DNA from: a virus
IMG/VR virus record: IMGVR_UViG_3300032299_000988
Coordinates: 1 to 20,621 of that record
DNA: 20,621 nucleotides
Reading direction: 5' to 3' (one strand)
The position numbers and the translations under genes are program-made. Below the pieces are notes generated by a model. It saw only the letters and a list, made by a program, of their open reading frames with translations, was not told the origin of the DNA and did not search any database. Shown piece after piece: positions 1,874 to 19,594 of the stretch. Numbering within the stretch: position 1 is the stretch's first letter; every line of letters starts with the position of its first letter.

Positions 1874-1892
1874 GCGGCCAAGGCATGGCCGC
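1874..1892 (+). promoter_or_regulatory. RNA hairpin covering the tail tube start codon
   Basis: GCGGCCA (1874-1880) and TGGCCGC (1886-1892) form a perfect 7-bp stem around a 5-base loop AGGCA. The ATG of the next gene (1885-1887) has its A in the loop and its TG in the stem. No strong Shine-Dalgarno sequence lies upstream. Folding could hold back initiation until an upstream ribosome opens the stem. The pairing is read directly from the sequence; the regulatory role is inferred. Confidence 0.5.
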
Positions 1893-2256
1893 TTCCGTTA
1901 TCACATCATCCTCCGCCTCGAGCGTTATCTTCGGCGCAACCGCCGAAACTGGCATCATCCTCTCCTCCTTTTCTCGTTCAGTGCAGTCCCAAAAGGCTGA
2001 ACTCATGGACGAAGATGGCGACATCGTTGCCGTCTCGCACTACGGGCGCACTGCCACGATCTCTCTGACAGGTGCGATCAACGGGTCTTCCGGAGTAGCC
2101 ACAGCCACCATCGGTGGTCTTCTCACTCTTGCGAATGCAACAACCGAGTTCGGTGTGACCGGCGGTAAGATCGTTGTGGATTCAGTTTCTTCCGAGCAAG
2201 GCAGCGATGCTTTCAAAACGCTCTCCATCGAAGCCACTCAATATCCCTCGCTCTAA
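1885..2256 (+). CDS. Probable major tail tube protein
   Basis: 123 residues, rich in Ala, Ser, Thr and Gly, with alternating short strands (HYGRTATISLTGAING, GGKIVVDSVSSEQG). This looks like the single beta-sandwich of small tail tube proteins and shows no enzyme motif. The start is forced: the frame is closed by TGA at 1867-1869 and ATG 1885 is the only start before the conserved part. It sits at the usual place, after the tail terminator-like gene and before the frameshifted chaperone. A 9-bp terminator-like hairpin follows the stop, which is common after highly expressed tail tube or capsid genes. At 123 residues it is short for the family, so another small tail protein remains possible. 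Confidence 0.55.
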   Translation: MAASVITSSSASSVIFGATAETGIILSSFSRSVQSQKAELMDEDGDIVAVSHYGRTATISLTGAINGSSGVATATIGGLLTLANATTEFGVTGGKIVVDSVSSEQGSDAFKTLSIEATQYPSL

Positions 2257-2312: not shown

Positions 2313-2723
2313 ATGATTGAGAACTACAACGACAAGGAGTCGTATTTTTACACCGCGAATATCAAAGTCGCGACCGCTCTCGCAACGATGGGGTTTGCGA
2401 TGAAGCAGCCAGAACCAGTCACTCGAATGGTTCGCCCGGACGGAAAAGAATCCACCGTTTTTTGGTTTGACGAATTGTCTACGACAGGCGCCAAGGCTCG
2501 GGATGTCGTGCTGGGAATGACCAAGGAGGCCGACGCACTTGATGCCTCCGACCCAGAGAACCCAATCAATTACATCCGCGCTACATTGCTCAACCGCGAC
2601 ACGCTTGTCGATCTCGTCCACAGCACGCCAAGACGCATCATCATTGAGCGAAACGGCAAGCGCATCGCGATCCGCGAAGACGCAACGGATGCCGACAAAA
2701 AGAATCTTGCTACAAAATTATGA
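2313..2723 (+). CDS. Phage tail-region protein of unknown function
   Basis: 136 residues from ATG 2313. The in-frame ATG at 2262 would encode 17 further residues from the hairpin region and is unlikely. The protein has mixed helix and strand, with a charged C-terminus (TPRRIIIERNGKRIAI, then EDATDADKK). I see no signal peptide, membrane segment or catalytic motif. It sits between the tail tube gene and the frameshifted chaperone and overlaps the latter by 4 bases, so a role in tail assembly is likely from position only. Confidence 0.5.
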   Translation: MIENYNDKESYFYTANIKVATALATMGFAMKQPEPVTRMVRPDGKESTVFWFDELSTTGAKARDVVLGMTKEADALDASDPENPINYIRATLLNRDTLVDLVHSTPRRIIIERNGKRIAIREDATDADKKNLATKL

Positions 2724-3106
2724 AAAAAAATAGAGACCTCGAAAAAGATGACGACATCCTCCGCGAAGAGGGAATGACAGAGGGGCCGATGAAATTTGGC
2801 GACCTCGAACTGCGACCTATCACGGCACTAAGCGTGAGTTGGATGCAGCGCAACCAAGTTTTTGCAGACGACAAAGACTTGATCTGGAAGTCGGCAGCGT
2901 TTGCATTTCTGCACTCTGCACCACGCGCCGACATTCAGAAAAGCGTGAACGACAGAGAAGACTTTCTAAACGCCGTGGATGCTTGGATGGATAAAAATGT
3001 CGTCCATCACAGCGAAATGAATGCAATTGCATCCATCATGGCCAAAGCATTTGAACGCTACGCCGCCGCGTCAAGCGAGACATCCGGGAACGGCTCAAAA
3101 AACTAA
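2720..3106 (+). CDS. Tail assembly chaperone, short form (lambda gpG-like)
   Basis: 128 residues. The N-terminus is very charged (KKNRDLEKDDDILREEG), followed by MKFGDLELRPITALS and a helical body with conserved-looking Trp residues (SVSWMQRNQVF, AVDAWMDKNV). It precedes the tape measure by two genes and ends in a -1 slippery heptamer followed at once by TAA. In siphophages this arrangement marks the tail assembly chaperones, which coat the tape measure while the tail tube polymerises and are absent from the mature virion. A minority of ribosomes would shift and make the 206-residue long form. No sequence identity to lambda gpG is claimed; the call rests on architecture. Confidence 0.75.
   Translation: MKKNRDLEKDDDILREEGMTEGPMKFGDLELRPITALSVSWMQRNQVFADDKDLIWKSAAFAFLHSAPRADIQKSVNDREDFLNAVDAWMDKNVVHHSEMNAIASIMAKAFERYAAASSETSGNGSKN
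3097..3103 (+). promoter_or_regulatory. Programmed -1 ribosomal frameshift site, A AAA AAC
   Basis: In the zero frame the codons read TCA AAA AAC TAA, so 3097-3103 is the canonical X XXY YYZ heptamer A AAA AAC with the stop codon directly after it (3104-3106). Slipping back one base continues as CTA AGC GGC and opens 78 further codons to TAA 3337-3339. Possible stimulatory pairings downstream are CCGGT (3113-3117) with ACCGG (3137-3141), or GCCCC (3110-3114) with GGGGC (3161-3165). These are mutually exclusive and unproven. Confidence 0.85.
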
Positions 3107-3339
3107 GCGGCCCCGGTTGGCTCGCAGGCTATGTTTACCGGCTTGCAAAGACGACTGGCTGGGGCTTTCGCGAATGTATGGAAGAGGTGCCGTTTGCGGC
3201 AGGATTGCAGATTTTGTTTTGCGATTCGCTCGCGACCGGACGCAAACCGAGATGGACGCGCAACCGCACCACAGCGTCGGTTGACGCTCTCGCCTCAATA
3301 GACGCGGCACTCGATGCCGCACTTAAAGGCTATGCCTAA
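3103..3339 (+). CDS. Frameshifted extension of the tail chaperone (lambda gpT-like part)
   Basis: This segment has no start codon near its beginning and is reached by -1 frameshifting from the upstream gene, giving a fusion of 127 + 1 + 78 = 206 residues. The encoded stretch looks like real protein: SGPGWLAGYVYRLAKTTGW, FRECMEEVPFAAGLQILFC, then a basic patch and an Ala-rich helix ending LKGYA. The competing frame (3021-3284) encodes an Arg/Pro/His-rich shadow. The long form would link the chaperone to the tail tube or tape measure, as gpGT does in lambda. It overlaps the start of the next gene by 8 bases. Confidence 0.8.
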   Translation, partial: LSGPGWLAGYVYRLAKTTGWGFRECMEEVPFAAGLQILFCDSLATGRKPRWTRNRTTASVDALASIDAALDAALKGYA

Positions 3340-4129
3340 ATTCAAATTTACAGCGACAAAATTAGAAAACATTTTAGACGATTACGCAAAGATTCGGGAG
3401 CAAACAATCCCTGACGCAGTCGTCGCAAATGCGCGCCTTCTCTGCGTCGAGCTGGCACGCCGCACCCAGCCGTTTGGAGATGATGACAAAGCAAAATTGG
3501 CTGGGGAAGGCCGCACAGAAAAAGACATCGGCAAAATTATCAAGACCGAAGAACAGCTCACCGCGATGGCAACGCGAGTGAACGCCGAGAAAATACGCGG
3601 AAGGTTGCTGTCCTTAGTCTCAGGCGGCAGGTTTGATGTCGTCGAGAAAATATTTTCCAATATCGGATTCCTCAAGACTTGGGGCGGCATGGAGATCATC
3701 TCTGGCGGGGCGATCAAGAGCACCCACCAATCTGCTCGCAATAGCACTACAGGACGCACTAAATCTCGCGGCACAAAGCTCACAATTGCAAAGCAGGGAG
3801 AACTTGATTCCTACATTGCCGGAGTCATCAAGCGCGTCGGCCTAACCAAGGCAGGATGGGCCGAGTGCGCGAAACAACTCCCGCAGGTAGTGCAGGGATC
3901 GATGACTCGCGGCATCCCCAGATGGGTCACGCGCAACTCAGGCAGCGGATCTGTGCAAGACAACTCGCGCAACGCCAGCAACCCATCTGTGCAGCTTACA
4001 AACTCCACACCTTGGGCATCCCAAGTCATCCCCGAGAACGAGATCGCATCGGCCAAGGCAGTCGTCATCACAAAAATGATCCAGCAAATGAAACGCATTT
4101 TGAAATACAGAGAAAAGGAGATCGCTTAA
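3332..4129 (+). CDS. Structural/neck-like protein upstream of the tape measure
   Basis: 265 residues from ATG 3332, with AAAGG at 3325-3329 just upstream. The in-frame ATG at 3314 would lie deeper inside the frameshifted gene. The N-terminal part (AVVANARLLCVELARRTQPFG, residues 30-50) resembles HK97 gp10-type structural proteins. The second half has a basic linker (SARNSTTGRTKSRGTKLT), a helix (RVGLTKAGWAECAKQLP) and a segment RGIPRWVTRNSGSGS. The C-terminus is a helix that is mostly Lys/Met/Ile. No catalytic site is seen. Position between the chaperone and the tape measure fits a minor tail or tail-completion role. The family assignment is tentative. Confidence 0.5.
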   Translation: MPKFKFTATKLENILDDYAKIREQTIPDAVVANARLLCVELARRTQPFGDDDKAKLAGEGRTEKDIGKIIKTEEQLTAMATRVNAEKIRGRLLSLVSGGRFDVVEKIFSNIGFLKTWGGMEIISGGAIKSTHQSARNSTTGRTKSRGTKLTIAKQGELDSYIAGVIKRVGLTKAGWAECAKQLPQVVQGSMTRGIPRWVTRNSGSGSVQDNSRNASNPSVQLTNSTPWASQVIPENEIASAKAVVITKMIQQMKRILKYREKEIA

Positions 4130-4130
4130 T

Positions 4131-6734
4131 ATGGCTGACGTATCCGTAGAATTTGGAGCCAAAGACACAGGGCTGGAAGCAACGCTCAAAACGGTGCAGG
4201 CCGAGATGTCGCGGCTCGAAACGGAGATCAAAAGCGGGGAGTTGTCGTTTAACCAACTCAGAACCGCGATGAGCGACTTGGCGAAGGCTGATAAGGTGTC
4301 GCAGCAGTTGCAGAGTATCGGCGCCTCGGCAGCTGGAGCATCGCCACAGGTGGACAAGCTGGGAAAAGACGGCAAGGAGATGGGCGACGATGTTAAAAAA
4401 GGCAGCGACAAGGGAGGCATGAGCCTGGGTGAGCTTGCGAAGGCCAGCGGAGTTGCAGGAGCAGCATTTGCTGCGGGAATGGCTGTGTTTAATACGGCGA
4501 TGGCAGGGGTGCAGGCGGTCGCAGCCAGCTTCGGCAACGCTCTGAATTTAGGCGGACAGCTTGCCGACCTCTCCGCGCAGACCGGAGTTGCAGCCGGAGA
4601 GCTTTTAGTGCTGCAACGCGCATTCGACAACACGGGCGCAGGGGCGGAAAAGGTTAGTCCGGCAATAGCCAAGATGTCCTCATCGATTGTAGACGCTACA
4701 AGCGGCACCGGAGCAGCGGCAAAGGCATTCGATCAACTTGGTCTCTCGGCTTCGGAACTCATCAACCTTCCCGCAGAGCAACAATTCCAGAAAATCGGCA
4801 ATGCGTTGGCTGGCGTTGCAAACGAGACGCAACGAAGCGCACTCGCGAGCGATGTTTTTGGTGGCAAATTGGGCAAAGACTTGCTGCCGCTCATGACAAA
4901 TTTCAGCGGTGAGACGCTCACCGCAACGCAACAACTCGGGGCAATGGTCGGCGTGATGAACGACAGTTCAAATGCGTTCGACGCGATTGGTGACGGAATC
5001 AAGGTCGCCCAGGGTAAACTCACCGAGTTTGCCGCCGGGCTAATGAGCGTGATGGCTCCGGCTATCGAGGCAGTGGTCACTGCGCTGACACGGATTGACG
5101 CAGCACAGATCGGCAAGGATTTAGGATCGGCATTCGTGGGCGCAGGAGAGGCCATGAAGGGGTTTCAGAGCGCAGTTGATGCTTTCCAAGCAGGAAACAT
5201 CAGCCTTGCTCTCAAGTCAATTTTCGAGAGCGTAAAATTGCAGGCGATGGAGACGGGAAATTCGATCGTCAATATATTCAGTGCGGCATTTCAAACAGCA
5301 GGAGACGTTCTTGGTGAGATTTTTAGTGCGCAGGGGGCAACATTTATGCTTCTCAGGTCGTCTTTTGATTTTGTTGCAGGATATGCAAAAGATAAAATTG
5401 CTGGGGCGATGTCAGAAATGTTTGCAAGTATGGGGCCAGCATTTGCTGGTATATCTGCCAGCTTAAAGCAGCATAGCGAGGCAGGGGCTTTAGCAGCAGA
5501 ACTTGCATTGCAGCGCATACCTATTGCTGCCGAATTATCAGGCGAGCAAATTTCAACTGCATTAGGTGGCGCAACAGAAAAGTTCCAATCCAACCTCGCT
5601 GCCGCGAATGGAGAATTTTTCAACACGGCAGAGCAGGCTAAAATAGTTGCAGTGGTTGCAGAAGAGATCAACGCGGCAACAGGCAAACATCCCGCACTTA
5701 TCAAAGACGCAGCGCAAGAGATGCGCGATTTGATCGAAGCGCAAGCTGCATCCACACAAGCCGAAACGGCAAAATTGGAAGCCGCCGCCGACATCGCTGA
5801 GGCAAAAATGAACGAAGTGCAGCGTCAGATTGAACTCAATGATGCAATTGCCACCGGCAACACGGCAGAGCAAGCGCGGTTGGAGGCGATTATTGAAGCA
5901 GAAAAAGGCACTGAGAGAATTAAAACACTTACAGAAGAATACGCGAAGGTAATGCCTGTAGACGAGGCAGCCAGACTTGCCAACGAGATATATAGGTCGG
6001 AAGCAAATATGTTGGCGGCTAAAAAAGCCACTACCGATACAAAAACCGAAGTAGGAACATTGGGGGAAATGCTTGACAAAATCGCAGGGAAAGATGTTTC
6101 CGCTCCCGTCCGAAATTTAGCAAAAGAAACCAAGGACGCACAGACAGACTTAAGGGGCATATCTCAAATTCTTAATGTGGATATTGCGGGCAGAGGAACG
6201 GTCGATACCATGAAAATGCTCGGTCTCGATCCAATGTCAATTGAAGGTTCCGCAGAACGACTCGACGCAATTAAAGGAGCAATCGACATTTTGAAAGGCG
6301 CAGACCCTGCCGATCTCACTCCAAAAGTTGATAAAGTCGGAGTGCAAGACAACATCGACGCGATCCAGACCTACATCCAAAACAAACTTGGCGGCACAAC
6401 CACAGCAAACATTGAAGCTACTGCGGACAAGAATGCTGCCGACAACGCAGCCGGGGCGATCACAAACGCCGTCGGATCGATCAACTCCCAAATCACCACC
6501 CAAACCGACGACAATAACATCGCATCGACCAGAGCCACCATCGAGCAGGGAGTGGCCGGCATCCCGCTCACATTTACCGTTGACCCGGAGCAGATCAAAA
6601 AGAGCATTGGCACAATCGATGTCAGTGGCGGGGCTGGCGGTGGGATAATGGGAGAGATCAAAGGGTTGGTCGATACAATCAAGGGGTTTGTTGAAAAAAT
6701 AGAAGGCAAACTCCCAATGACCGCACTCGCATAA
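4131..6734 (+). CDS. Tail tape measure protein
   Basis: 867 residues, the largest gene of the window. Residues 10-65 form a heptad-like coiled coil (KDTGLEATLKTVQAEMSRL). Residues 105-140 are an Ala/Gly-rich hydrophobic stretch (GVAGAAFAAGMAVFNTAMAG). Long Ala/Glu-rich helices follow (about 480-680), and the C-terminus ends with GLVDTIKGFVEKIEGK. This low-complexity helical make-up, the size and the position after the frameshifted chaperone are diagnostic. The protein sets tail length and is thought to enter the host envelope during DNA delivery. By the usual 0.15 nm per residue the tail would be near 130 nm. No lysozyme or peptidase domain is visible. Bases 5230-5560 look AT-richer than the rest, a possible mosaic patch. 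Confidence 0.88.
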   Translation: MADVSVEFGAKDTGLEATLKTVQAEMSRLETEIKSGELSFNQLRTAMSDLAKADKVSQQLQSIGASAAGASPQVDKLGKDGKEMGDDVKKGSDKGGMSLGELAKASGVAGAAFAAGMAVFNTAMAGVQAVAASFGNALNLGGQLADLSAQTGVAAGELLVLQRAFDNTGAGAEKVSPAIAKMSSSIVDATSGTGAAAKAFDQLGLSASELINLPAEQQFQKIGNALAGVANETQRSALASDVFGGKLGKDLLPLMTNFSGETLTATQQLGAMVGVMNDSSNAFDAIGDGIKVAQGKLTEFAAGLMSVMAPAIEAVVTALTRIDAAQIGKDLGSAFVGAGEAMKGFQSAVDAFQAGNISLALKSIFESVKLQAMETGNSIVNIFSAAFQTAGDVLGEIFSAQGATFMLLRSSFDFVAGYAKDKIAGAMSEMFASMGPAFAGISASLKQHSEAGALAAELALQRIPIAAELSGEQISTALGGATEKFQSNLAAANGEFFNTAEQAKIVAVVAEEINAATGKHPALIKDAAQEMRDLIEAQAASTQAETAKLEAAADIAEAKMNEVQRQIELNDAIATGNTAEQARLEAIIEAEKGTERIKTLTEEYAKVMPVDEAARLANEIYRSEANMLAAKKATTDTKTEVGTLGEMLDKIAGKDVSAPVRNLAKETKDAQTDLRGISQILNVDIAGRGTVDTMKMLGLDPMSIEGSAERLDAIKGAIDILKGADPADLTPKVDKVGVQDNIDAIQTYIQNKLGGTTTANIEATADKNAADNAAGAITNAVGSINSQITTQTDDNNIASTRATIEQGVAGIPLTFTVDPEQIKKSIGTIDVSGGAGGGIMGEIKGLVDTIKGFVEKIEGKLPMTALA

Positions 6735-10508: not shown

Positions 10509-11291
10509 ATGATTCTGAGCTTCCCATTTATTGCAGCTTCGTTCGATGCCGACGCTCGAGCATTTATCAACACCAGCGGCGCAACGGCGCGTGCGGAAAT
10601 TAACCATTTCGTCAAGGGCATTAAAAAACTCGGGCTCTACAGCAGCATGGTCTGTTGGCCGCTCCGAAGCTCGCAGAACGCAGGGACAGGCTCGACGGCA
10701 TACTCGCTGGGCGGGCTTGGAACATACAACGGCACGCTCGTAAACGGGCCTACTTGGGGGGCGGATGGGGTGAATTTTGATGGAACGTCAACCTACATCC
10801 AAAATGCTTCGCTCTCTGATAATTCACAAGGAACGCTGGCAGCGTTTGCCTTTACAAATAACCCAATTTTAGCAGGTGATGGACGACGCTTAATAAATTT
10901 TAATTTAGGCATTGAACTTGGAGCAACAAATTCCAGCCCGAACATTGGTATTGAGGCTTATTATACAACTACGCCGTTCGATGGCGTAGGGCGAAATGTT
11001 AATCCTTCAACTTCAATTTCAGGGGTGAGATTTGGAGCATTTGGAGTATTTTCTAACAATCAATCAATTGCACGATACATCAACGATGGGTCAAAACTTT
11101 TAAATTCAAGCGTTGCTACAAATTACACAAGCAGACAAAACGTGACCATCGGGGGGCGCGCTAATCAGCTTTTCTGGGACGGCAGCATATCGTTTGCAAC
11201 GTATTCGACTACGAGATTCACTGACACCCAAGTCTCGGTTTTTTACGCCCTCTATAAATCCACCCTCGGCCAAGGACTCGGACTGCCATGA
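10509..11291 (+). CDS. Lectin-like (concanavalin/LamG-type) tail protein
   Basis: 260 residues. The N-terminus has DADARAFINTSG and then a helix (INHFVKGIKKLGLYSSM). From residue 49 the pattern CWPLRSSQNAGTGSTAYSLG, NGTLVNGPTWGADGVNFDGT is typical of LamG/concanavalin A-like jelly-roll domains in phage surface proteins. Strands continue to the C-terminus (NVTIGGRANQLFWDGSIS). Likely binds host glycans or decorates the tail tip. Bases about 10800-11130 are AT-richer than both ends of the gene, consistent with exchange of the central part. It overlaps the first lysis gene by 4 bases. Confidence 0.65.
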   Translation: MILSFPFIAASFDADARAFINTSGATARAEINHFVKGIKKLGLYSSMVCWPLRSSQNAGTGSTAYSLGGLGTYNGTLVNGPTWGADGVNFDGTSTYIQNASLSDNSQGTLAAFAFTNNPILAGDGRRLINFNLGIELGATNSSPNIGIEAYYTTTPFDGVGRNVNPSTSISGVRFGAFGVFSNNQSIARYINDGSKLLNSSVATNYTSRQNVTIGGRANQLFWDGSISFATYSTTRFTDTQVSVFYALYKSTLGQGLGLP

Positions 11292-11479
11292 TCGACAACA
11301 CCGCTTTTGTTGGGACTTTTGGAACGCTTGTTGCCGCGTCATCCCTCGTCCTAAATCAGGTGCAGGAAATTGATATTTATCTCAAATTCGGCATCTCATG
11401 CGTGGGTCTTTTGACGGCAGTCCTCACCGCAATTTACGTTGGTCTCAAACTCTGGCACAAAACCTACACGAAAGAATGA
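11288..11479 (+). CDS. Holin-like small membrane protein
   Basis: 63 residues with two likely transmembrane segments: about 7-23 (FVGTFGTLVAASSLVL) and 31-53 (LKFGISCVGLLTAVLTAIYV). A short charged C-terminus follows (KLWHKTYTKE). Size, two helices and position three genes before an endolysin fit a class II-type holin, which opens the inner membrane at the time of lysis. It is joined to both neighbours by ATGA overlaps. A second candidate holin lies two genes downstream, so which one makes the lesion is open. Confidence 0.6.
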   Translation: MIDNTAFVGTFGTLVAASSLVLNQVQEIDIYLKFGISCVGLLTAVLTAIYVGLKLWHKTYTKE

Positions 11480-11679
11480 AATCAATCCTACTCGCTCTCG
11501 CCGCAGTTGCACTCCCGGGCTGCATCACGATCCCAATCCCGCCAGTAGGCTCGCACGTCGGCGCCCTCGGCTCCGTGCGAGTCAGTATCGTCTACGAATC
11601 CAACAACACCACAACGCAGAAAACTCCGAGCATGCAATACGCTTTCGAGTCGTTTTCCAAAACCCTAACTGACAAATGA
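11476..11679 (+). CDS. Small lipoprotein in the lysis cassette (o-spanin-like?)
   Basis: 67 residues from ATG 11476. MKSILLALAAVALPGC is a signal peptide of the lipoprotein type with the modified Cys at position 16; the residue before Gly is Pro, which is unusual in lipoboxes. Residue +2 is Ile, not Asp, so outer membrane sorting is expected in a Gram-negative host. The mature part begins ITIPIPPVGS and has no transmembrane helix. Location between holin-like genes and next to the endolysin recalls Rz1-type outer-membrane spanins. No matching inner-membrane spanin with a coiled coil is visible, so the spanin call is tentative. Confidence 0.6.
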   Translation: MKSILLALAAVALPGCITIPIPPVGSHVGALGSVRVSIVYESNNTTTQKTPSMQYAFESFSKTLTDK

Positions 11680-11852
11680 AATACCTCATCCTTGCACTTA
11701 ACAAACTGAATGAATCAAGCACCTGGCGCGGTCTCATCTTGGTAGCCACCGCCCTCGGAGTGCAGCTCGAACCCGAACTCCAGAACCACATCGTGGCCGG
11801 GGGTCTGGCAATCGTGGGAGCGATAAACATTATCCGCAAAGAGCCAAAATGA
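11676..11852 (+). CDS. Second holin-like small membrane protein
   Basis: 58 residues, ATG 11676 to TGA 11850-11852, overlapping the lipoprotein gene and the endolysin gene by 4 bases each. The sequence runs MKYLILALNKLNESSTWRG, then two hydrophobic helices (about 19-31 and 39-53) separated by QLEPELQNH, and a basic end (RKEPK). The N-K-L-x-x-x-S-T-W-R-G start, the Pro/Glu-containing loop and the C-terminal R-K-E resemble small phage holins from Gram-negative hosts. Direct linkage to the endolysin makes this the better holin candidate of the two. The alternative is an antiholin. Confidence 0.6.
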   Translation: MKYLILALNKLNESSTWRGLILVATALGVQLEPELQNHIVAGGLAIVGAINIIRKEPK

Positions 11853-12424
11853 ACCGTGCTCAGATCGAGTCTATGCAGGCTCGCATCGGTGCGAAGCCTG
11901 ACGGTTGGTGGGGGCCGGAGAGCATTCGCGCGCTCAACCGGCATCTCAAGGCTATGCAGCCCGGAACATCGCCAAAGCCCAGCACGGCGGCCTGCACCTC
12001 ATTCTACGGCGACCCGGGCAGCGTGCCGCTGGTGCGGATAAAGCCACCGTTTCAGATGTTTTTATATGACACGCCAAAGCCAATCGACGGCATTGCGATC
12101 CACGCAAAATGTCACGAGAGTTTGCAGTCTATTTTAGAGACCCTGTTCGACTACTACCCGACACCAGCAAACCGCGCAGAGGTAGGCATTGACAGGTTCT
12201 TTGGATCTTACGCAGTGCGTGCCCAGCGTGGCGGCAGTGAGCCAAGTAAGCACTCGTGGGGAGCGGCGGTTGATCTCGACGCAGACCGCAACGGACTGCA
12301 CACCGCGTGGCCTACACGCTCGCACATGCCTCTACGCGTCATCGAGGTTTTCGCACAGCACGGGTGGATCAATCTTGGGGCGACAATTGGTCGCGACGCC
12401 ATGCACTTTCAGATGACCCAGTGA
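11849..12424 (+). CDS. Endolysin: peptidoglycan-binding domain plus M15-type peptidase
   Basis: 191 residues. Residues 1-36 (MNRAQIESMQARIGAKPDG, then WWGPESIRALNRHL) form a short PG_binding_1-type wall-binding repeat. The catalytic part carries SKHSWGAAVDLDADRN (133-148), the S-x-H-x-x-G-x-A-x-D zinc motif with H135 and D142, and DAMHFQ (183-188) with H186 as third zinc ligand and D183 as likely general base. This is the M15 (VanY/D-Ala-D-Ala carboxypeptidase or L-Ala-D-Glu endopeptidase) fold. It cleaves peptide stems of peptidoglycan. No signal peptide is seen, so holin-dependent release is expected. The binding domain is N-terminal, an order more typical of phages of Gram-negative hosts. 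Confidence 0.85.
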   Translation: MNRAQIESMQARIGAKPDGWWGPESIRALNRHLKAMQPGTSPKPSTAACTSFYGDPGSVPLVRIKPPFQMFLYDTPKPIDGIAIHAKCHESLQSILETLFDYYPTPANRAEVGIDRFFGSYAVRAQRGGSEPSKHSWGAAVDLDADRNGLHTAWPTRSHMPLRVIEVFAQHGWINLGATIGRDAMHFQMTQ

Positions 12425-12434
12425 CCCAGTGACC
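12414..12434 (+). repeat. TGACCCAG tandem repeat at the endolysin stop
   Basis: Two full copies of TGACCCAG (12414-12421, 12422-12429) and a partial third (TGACC, 12430-12434) span the endolysin stop codon TGA (12422-12424) and run up to the ATG at 12435. Loss or gain of one unit would keep the stop but change the gap to the next gene. Confidence 0.75.
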
Positions 12435-12686
12435 ATGAAAAACACAAAAATTAAATTACCGCCAGATCGCGAAACAATCATGCTCCAGGTGCGGCAGTTG
12501 CTGGCCGAACACTTTGACTGTGGGGTTGTCATTGTGTCTTGGGAGGACAGCGGGGAGACCTACCACATGCACATGAAGCACGGCAATGAATACGCCTGTC
12601 GCAGCCTTGCCGGTGATGCCGAGGTCATCCTCTGGCCGATCGAAGATGATGACGAAGACGATGAAGAAGAGGAGGTGGAAGCATGA
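12435..12686 (+). CDS. Small acidic protein of unknown function
   Basis: 83 residues from ATG 12435; a GTG at 12429 is also in frame but lies in the tandem repeat. The N-terminal half is basic (KNTKIKLPPDRETIMLQVRQ), the middle is strand-rich (CGVVIVSWEDSG, YHMHMKHG) and the C-terminus is an acidic run (about 72-82, EDDDEDDEEEE). Acidic tails of this kind occur in DNA-mimic and protein-interaction proteins, but nothing specific is recognised. The last codons contain GGAGGTGG, a ribosome site for the next gene, which it overlaps by 4 bases. Confidence 0.5.
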   Translation: MKNTKIKLPPDRETIMLQVRQLLAEHFDCGVVIVSWEDSGETYHMHMKHGNEYACRSLAGDAEVILWPIEDDDEDDEEEEVEA

Positions 12687-19106: not shown

Positions 19107-19148
19107 ATGAGAGTCATTGACGCGATCAAGCGCTGGAAGGAATTATGA
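19107..19148 (+). CDS. Possible 13-codon leader ORF
   Basis: ATG 19107 to TGA 19146-19148 encodes MRVIDAIKRWKEL and overlaps the next start by 4 bases, like the other junctions here. Its end contains GGAAGGA (19135-19141), the ribosome site of the next gene. It may be a coupling leader or chance; an overlapping ATG at 19093 gives only four codons. Confidence 0.2.
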   Translation: MRVIDAIKRWKEL

Positions 19149-19594
19149 GTGAATGGATCAAAGTTGAACACCACATCCACGAAAAGGTGGAGGTGGCAAC
19201 GATTGCCGAGTTGACCGGATTGGACCCGGATGCGGTGGTCGGGAAGCTGTGCAAAGTGTGGTCGTGGGCGTCACGGAATTGTCACGGTGACGGCGTGACA
19301 GGAATCGCGTCACTGCGAATTATCCGCGAAATCACGGGCTGCGAGACCTTCGACGAAGCACTCGCAAATTGTGGTTGGATCATAATCAAAGGCGACAAAG
19401 TAAGCTTCTCAAACTTCGATCGGCACAACTCGCAAACAGCTAAAGAGAGGGCGCTTGCAACTCAAAGAAAGTGGAAGCAACGCACCAAAGAAGCTGTCAC
19501 GAAAATGTCACGCTCCAAGCGTGACCAAAACGGGACTAGAAGAGAAGAGAATAGAGTCGGGGTCTTCGACCCCTCTCCGGTGACTTGTCTATGA
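19145..19594 (+). CDS. Phage replication initiator/helicase-loader-like protein
   Basis: 149 residues, ATG 19145 with GGAAGGA upstream. The N-terminal domain (WIKVEHHIHEKVEVATIAEL, VVGKLCKVWSWA, GDGVTGI, then SFSNFDRHNSQTAKERAL) matches the winged-helix start of phage replisome organiser proteins, where a W-x-K-x-E segment, a V-x-G-x-L helix and an F-D-x-H-N-x-x-x-A-K motif recur. The C-terminus is basic (RKWKQRTKEAVTKMSRSK) and probably binds DNA. It overlaps the DnaB-like helicase by 4 bases. The two would cooperate in origin recognition and helicase loading. It is shorter than typical initiators, so the loader domain may be reduced. Confidence 0.6.
   Translation: MSEWIKVEHHIHEKVEVATIAELTGLDPDAVVGKLCKVWSWASRNCHGDGVTGIASLRIIREITGCETFDEALANCGWIIIKGDKVSFSNFDRHNSQTAKERALATQRKWKQRTKEAVTKMSRSKRDQNGTRREENRVGVFDPSPVTCL

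Follow-up and report, generated by a model that had tools for sequence, protein, structure and literature searches.

Analysis of a 20,621-nt stretch of viral DNA (the window) and its relatives indicated that a probable tail assembly chaperone gene pair is expressed through a programmed −1 ribosomal frameshift signal giving two products, a reading to which we assign a probability of about 0.93 on comparative sequence evidence. By the same evidence the signal is real and well supported. Its layout, unusual and constant across the relatives, has earlier been reported chiefly from RNA viruses of plants. The mechanism belongs to a known kind of recoding, and the combination of an invariant abutting stop codon and a hairpin is new for tail chaperones.

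The predicted frameshift site in the window

The zero-frame ORF begins at an ATG (position 2720) that overlaps the stop codon of the preceding gene (ATGA) and ends with GGC TCA AAA AAC TAA. As the original prediction had it, A AAA AAC lies at 3097-3103 in the zero-frame X XXY YYZ register, the zero-frame TAA (3104-3106) directly abuts the 3′ end of the heptamer, and the −1 frame is open for 78 codons (3103-3336), closing with TAA at 3337-3339. The predicted fusion is 128 + 78 = 206 residues long and has GNGSKNLSGPGW as its N-C junction peptide. The features of the site are as follows.

2720..3106, + strand: zero-frame ORF, G-like part giving the short product (128 aa), with homologous N parts in relatives
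3097..3103, + strand: slippery heptamer A AAA AAC, exchanged for GGGAAAC or CCCAAAC and never lost across 130 junctions
3104..3106, + strand: zero-frame stop codon TAA abutting the heptamer, with a stop here in 130/130 junctions
3103..3339, + strand: −1 frame ORF, T-like part, 78 codons plus stop, with no ATG, GTG or TTG near its 5′ end
3109..3120, + strand: 5′ arm of the stem, 5 nt past the heptamer and 2 nt past the stop
3155..3166, + strand: 3′ arm of the stem

The string AAAAAACTAA was found once in the window, compared with 0.03 occurrences expected by chance. Strings made of a heptamer of this type plus a stop, counted in any frame, were not rare in this DNA (five on the + strand versus about 1.8 expected), so the evidence from the single sequence was modest and comparison with relatives was needed.

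Conservation of the junction among relatives

A large family emerged when IMG/VR was searched, first with the two halves of the pair separately and then with alignments. For the first set of loci, profiles served to locate the N and C parts among stop-to-stop ORFs, and junctions were then read blind to the heptamer; two loci (L046 and L154) were omitted from this set because they were cut at contig ends. In all, 130 distinct junctions were obtained, comprising 104 IMG/VR loci (window included), 24 more distant loci and 2 Verrucomicrobia MAG contigs, which are mutually related and should not be read as 130 independent events.

A canonical heptamer ended exactly at a stop codon in every one of the 130 distinct junctions. 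GGGAAAC was followed by TAA in 71 junctions, TAG in 8 and TGA in 8; AAAAAAC by TAG in 23 and TAA in 5; and CCCAAAC by TAA in 15. Checking the relatives for loss of the heptamer revealed none, only exchange for other canonical heptamers. A tree of 106 required a minimum of 5 changes of heptamer and 9 of stop type. The C part lay at −1 in 104/104 first-set loci, with in-frame fusion in none (0/104). The presence of heptamer and abutting stop in all 130 junctions argues for the predicted programmed −1 shift joining the two parts, and the use of all three stop types at this one place bears out the earlier suggestion that the stop is a meaningful feature.

The last base of the heptamer (window position 3103) was C in all 130 junctions, with AAC in the A site and never a final G; the heptamer of phage lambda, in contrast, ends in G. 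In E. coli AAAAAAG, not AAAAAAC, is favoured, and A AAA AAC is the weaker shift site of the two (PMC5009743), suggesting that host decoding matters. Both A AAA AAC and G GGA AAC rank near the top for mammalian ribosomes (PMC5009743). The invariant final C may say something about the Asn and Lys tRNAs of the host.

A conserved stem downstream of the stop

The original prediction had judged the downstream pairing weak. That judgement was wrong: a conserved stem of about 12 bp, formed in the window by 3109-3120 and 3155-3166, follows the heptamer after a 5-nt spacer, within the usual range of 5-9 nt (PMC7618472). The stem is visible when about 65-70 nt past the stop are folded and is missed by a 40-nt folding span; too short a span may explain the earlier view. 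Given the conserved stem, the stop need not be the only source of stimulation, the role proposed for it earlier.

Over 94 sequences, 94.7% of the cells of the 12-pair stem were paired, and sliding the partner by 1-3 columns lowered this to 22-63%. On average 11.4 of 12 positions were paired, compared with 8.5 expected from synonymous resampling, in which the proteins were held fixed and codons were drawn from background usage. Mean folding z just past the stop was −3.40 for 18 representatives and −3.29 over 31 representatives, versus +0.17 to −1.25 for eleven other segments of the two genes; the z of the window itself was about −2. Codon choice within the stem was also constrained, with the Pro codon at pair 18-65 being CCC or CCT in all aligned sequences compared with 39% of background Pro codons.

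Compensatory changes were found at C15-G68, replaced by G-C in two loci (L091 and L174), and at G20-C63, replaced by A-U in 16 sequences. Among divergent members, L193 pairs CCCCC with GGGGG, and L185 pairs AUCCUG with CAGGAU in a register moved by one base. The distant relatives L184 and L185 both keep, around position 3001 in these loci, a downstream stem of different sequence one base out of register, and the covariation count assumed a fixed register. The upper part of the hairpin was not conserved in detail. Folding of the whole alignment with RNAalifold gave only 8 pairs in mixed register and was replaced by the count over the named 12-pair stem.

With these elements, most ribosomes would read ...TCA AAA AAC and terminate at TAA, releasing the 128-residue protein. 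The hairpin starting 5 nt past the heptamer would slow ribosomes, and a minority would slip, tRNA-Lys and tRNA-Asn moving back one base in tandem on A AAA AAC so that the AAA and AAC tRNAs re-pair with AAA and AAA at −1; in relatives, the tandem slip would be made by Gly/Asn or Pro/Asn tRNAs. After the slip, CTA would be read in place of TAA and translation would continue to give the 206-residue fusion. We infer that the two products correspond to the G and GT forms of a chaperone recruiting the tail tube protein to the tape measure protein.

Possible role of the abutting stop

Read in the −1 frame, the stop falls across two codons, a Leu codon (CTA or CTG) and, by one base, the codon after it. 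Among CTN codons taken in context from long ORFs of these loci, only 11.6% would produce a stop at this offset, versus 130/130 here; in that background CTA is only 10% of CTN codons, and the overlapping Leu codon here stays CTA or CTG. The second −1 residue varies (Asn, Ala, Ser, Asp or Thr), indicating that the protein does not force the stop. Together, these sequence comparisons indicate that a stop in precisely this position has been selected for. Most likely the abutting stop increases or fixes the rate of shifting, by slowing the ribosome or those queued behind it, and makes the short product end right where slippage occurs. It could add a pause, alter the spacing of the ribosomes queued behind, or only end the short product.

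A similar layout is found in plant RNA viruses. BYDV, RCNMV and GRV share the slippery site, the stop directly after it, the 5-nt spacer and a large stem-loop beside the stop, and in PEMV, as here, the type of stop is interchangeable (PMC4737148). The luteo-, diantho- and umbraviruses differ in that they are plant RNA viruses using eukaryotic ribosomes, with the signal in the polymerase gene and long-distance pairing (PMC4737148). The layout that the phage signal shares with BYDV, RCNMV and GRV is thus an apparent convergence, with no common ancestry suggested. A stop next to the shift site also takes part in the Listeria phage PSA tail shaft gene and in bacterial prfB; these, however, are shifts in the +1 direction, made by one tRNA in the P site while the stop occupies the A site (PMC5009743).

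Alternatively, the shift may be real and the abutting stop without effect on its rate, being kept for a clean end to the short product or for some other reason. We regard this as possible though doubtful, and it is compatible with the rest of the explanation given above. The heptamer and stem already make a complete signal, and a tandem slip during translocation precedes entry of the stop into the A site. Results from BYDV conflict: replacing the stop with a sense codon eliminated shifting in a reporter construct but did not do so in the full-length RNA. In PEMV the same change lowered the shift more than 3-fold, and substitution of other stops was immaterial (PMC4737148). Further against a stop without effect on the rate, the occurrence of a stop in all 130 junctions, with all three codons used, points to selection at the exact place. 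Other tail chaperones, moreover, have their stops at mean distances past the slippery site of 26 nt (SEA-PHAGES set) and 36 nt (Xu et al. set) according to published surveys (PMC10885494), which argues that a clean end is not generally needed; here the stop always abuts. No other tail chaperone with an abutting stop was found in the literature searched, which excluded most subscription papers.

A more novel reading, to which we give somewhat less than even odds, is that the stop is a working, selected part of the signal, that release-factor dynamics help set the G:GT ratio and that this phage family and the plant RNA viruses each arrived at the layout on their own, with the gene that follows possibly coupled to frameshifted ribosomes.

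Alternative origins of the frame break

The trans-frame part is conserved as protein in the relatives, generally without a start of its own. In 85 of the 104 first-set loci, the −1 frame held no ATG, GTG or TTG between 20 codons ahead of the heptamer and 14 codons past it, and in 36 of the 104 a −1 stop lay within 5 codons upstream. Both observations count against the second part being a separate gene translated by coupling or reinitiation at the stop, a possibility that the relatives were checked for and that now seems very improbable. In its favour, the stop and the second ORF overlap, an upstream −1 ATG is present in 4/104 loci and a downstream GTG or TTG in 15/104, and the ATGs checked had no obvious Shine-Dalgarno sequence just before them, so starts are hard to judge. 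A separate gene would nevertheless leave the ever-present canonical heptamer unexplained.

Slippage of RNA polymerase on the run of six consecutive A residues in the window, producing mRNAs with a base lost or gained and so encoding the fusion, is less probable still. In most relatives the heptamer is GGGAAAC or CCCAAAC and a long homopolymer is lacking, but the frame relation and abutting stop are the same, and the conserved RNA stem fits stimulation of a ribosomal shift. Although homopolymer runs are error-prone, a sequencing or assembly error in the window has a negligible probability and is already refuted by the relatives, since the same break recurs across all 130 distinct junctions, which come from numerous different metagenomes and mostly lack the homopolymer. 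A programmed −1 ribosomal frameshift thus remains the preferred reading of the frame break.

Gene neighbourhood and identity of the probable chaperone

The genes flanking the pair in the window are listed below.

1885..2256, + strand: probable major tail protein gene, identified by place only, with a homologue upstream in 93/94 loci with enough sequence
3332..4129, + strand: gene lying after the chaperone pair and before the tape measure gene, with an ATG that overlaps the −1 ORF stop (ATGCCTAA)
4131..6734, + strand: tail tape measure protein gene (PHROG 8462, tail length tape measure, E 1.5e-11)

A tape measure homologue lay downstream in 98/98 loci with enough sequence, giving the gene order major-tail-like gene, N, C and tape measure; the window has one extra gene on each side of the pair. 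This order makes the N/C pair a probable tail assembly chaperone of the lambda G/GT type, as had been proposed for the pair, but neither half matched a known family. Nothing significant was obtained from Pfam and PHROGs with both halves, alone and as 18-member alignments, or from tblastn searches of named phages with both halves and a distant homologue. The AlphaFold model of the N part was mostly helical (mean pLDDT 77.5), and its fold had no match in PDB or BFVD at E <= 0.001; the C-part model (pLDDT 61) was too poor for a fold search. Such chaperone genes share low sequence similarity across phages (PMC5009743).

Compared with the lambda G/GT frameshift and the equivalent shifts of long-tailed phages (Xu, Hendrix and Duda 2004, as given in the review PMC5009743), the system has in common a −1 shift on X XXY YYZ (G GGA AAG in lambda; G GGA AAC, A AAA AAC or C CCA AAC here), a short product with a C-terminally extended fusion, and a place between the major tail protein and tape measure genes. 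It differs in having no sequence match to known chaperone families. It differs also in its strong conserved stem 5 nt downstream, whereas certain sites in tailed phages seem to have no stimulator (PMC5009743).

In the 3332-3339 segment, the start (ATG) of the following gene overlaps the stop that closes the −1 ORF, and several relatives have TGATG at this place; the gene at 3332..4129 could therefore be translationally coupled to frameshifted ribosomes. A clear Shine-Dalgarno sequence was not found before the chaperone ATG in the window (2695-2722) or in the relatives checked (L007-L022), a possible sign that initiation in the host makes little use of SD sequences.

Host hints and other genes of the window

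The phage is of freshwater type. The two MAGs, together with weak similarity to Verrucomicrobia phage P8625 reached through the tape measure protein, hint at Verrucomicrobiota hosts. No homologous chaperone pair was recognised upstream of the P8625 tape measure gene. When flanking host genes were sought on the 56.8-kb MAG contig, the proteins with matches looked phage-like (DnaB, terminase), and this contig is probably a binned phage that gives weak evidence on the host.

Elsewhere in the window are a probable lysis cassette (11288-12424) and replication genes.

11288-11479: holin-like small membrane protein, lysis cassette
ending at 11679: lipoprotein-like ORF, overlapping, lysis cassette
11849-12424: endolysin, lysis cassette (PHROG 17001, E 8e-29)
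19145-19594: replication initiation protein gene (PHROG 2509, E 1.7e-36)

A small ORF at 12429-12686 encodes a strongly acidic C-terminus (EDDDEDDEEEEVEA), and an open-ended ORF from about 19591 to the end of the window (20621) resembles a DnaB-type replicative helicase.

Implications

Tail chaperone frameshifts are common, and the key elements of their signals are mostly known from a few model phages. The family described here, absent from Pfam and PHROGs, amounts to 130 natural versions of one signal, in which heptamers, stop codons and stem sequences have been swapped while the layout stayed fixed. Gene callers will miss or misread a second part that lacks a start codon, a warning for annotation. 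With this family, the role of a stop right behind a −1 shift site becomes directly testable in a bacterial system.
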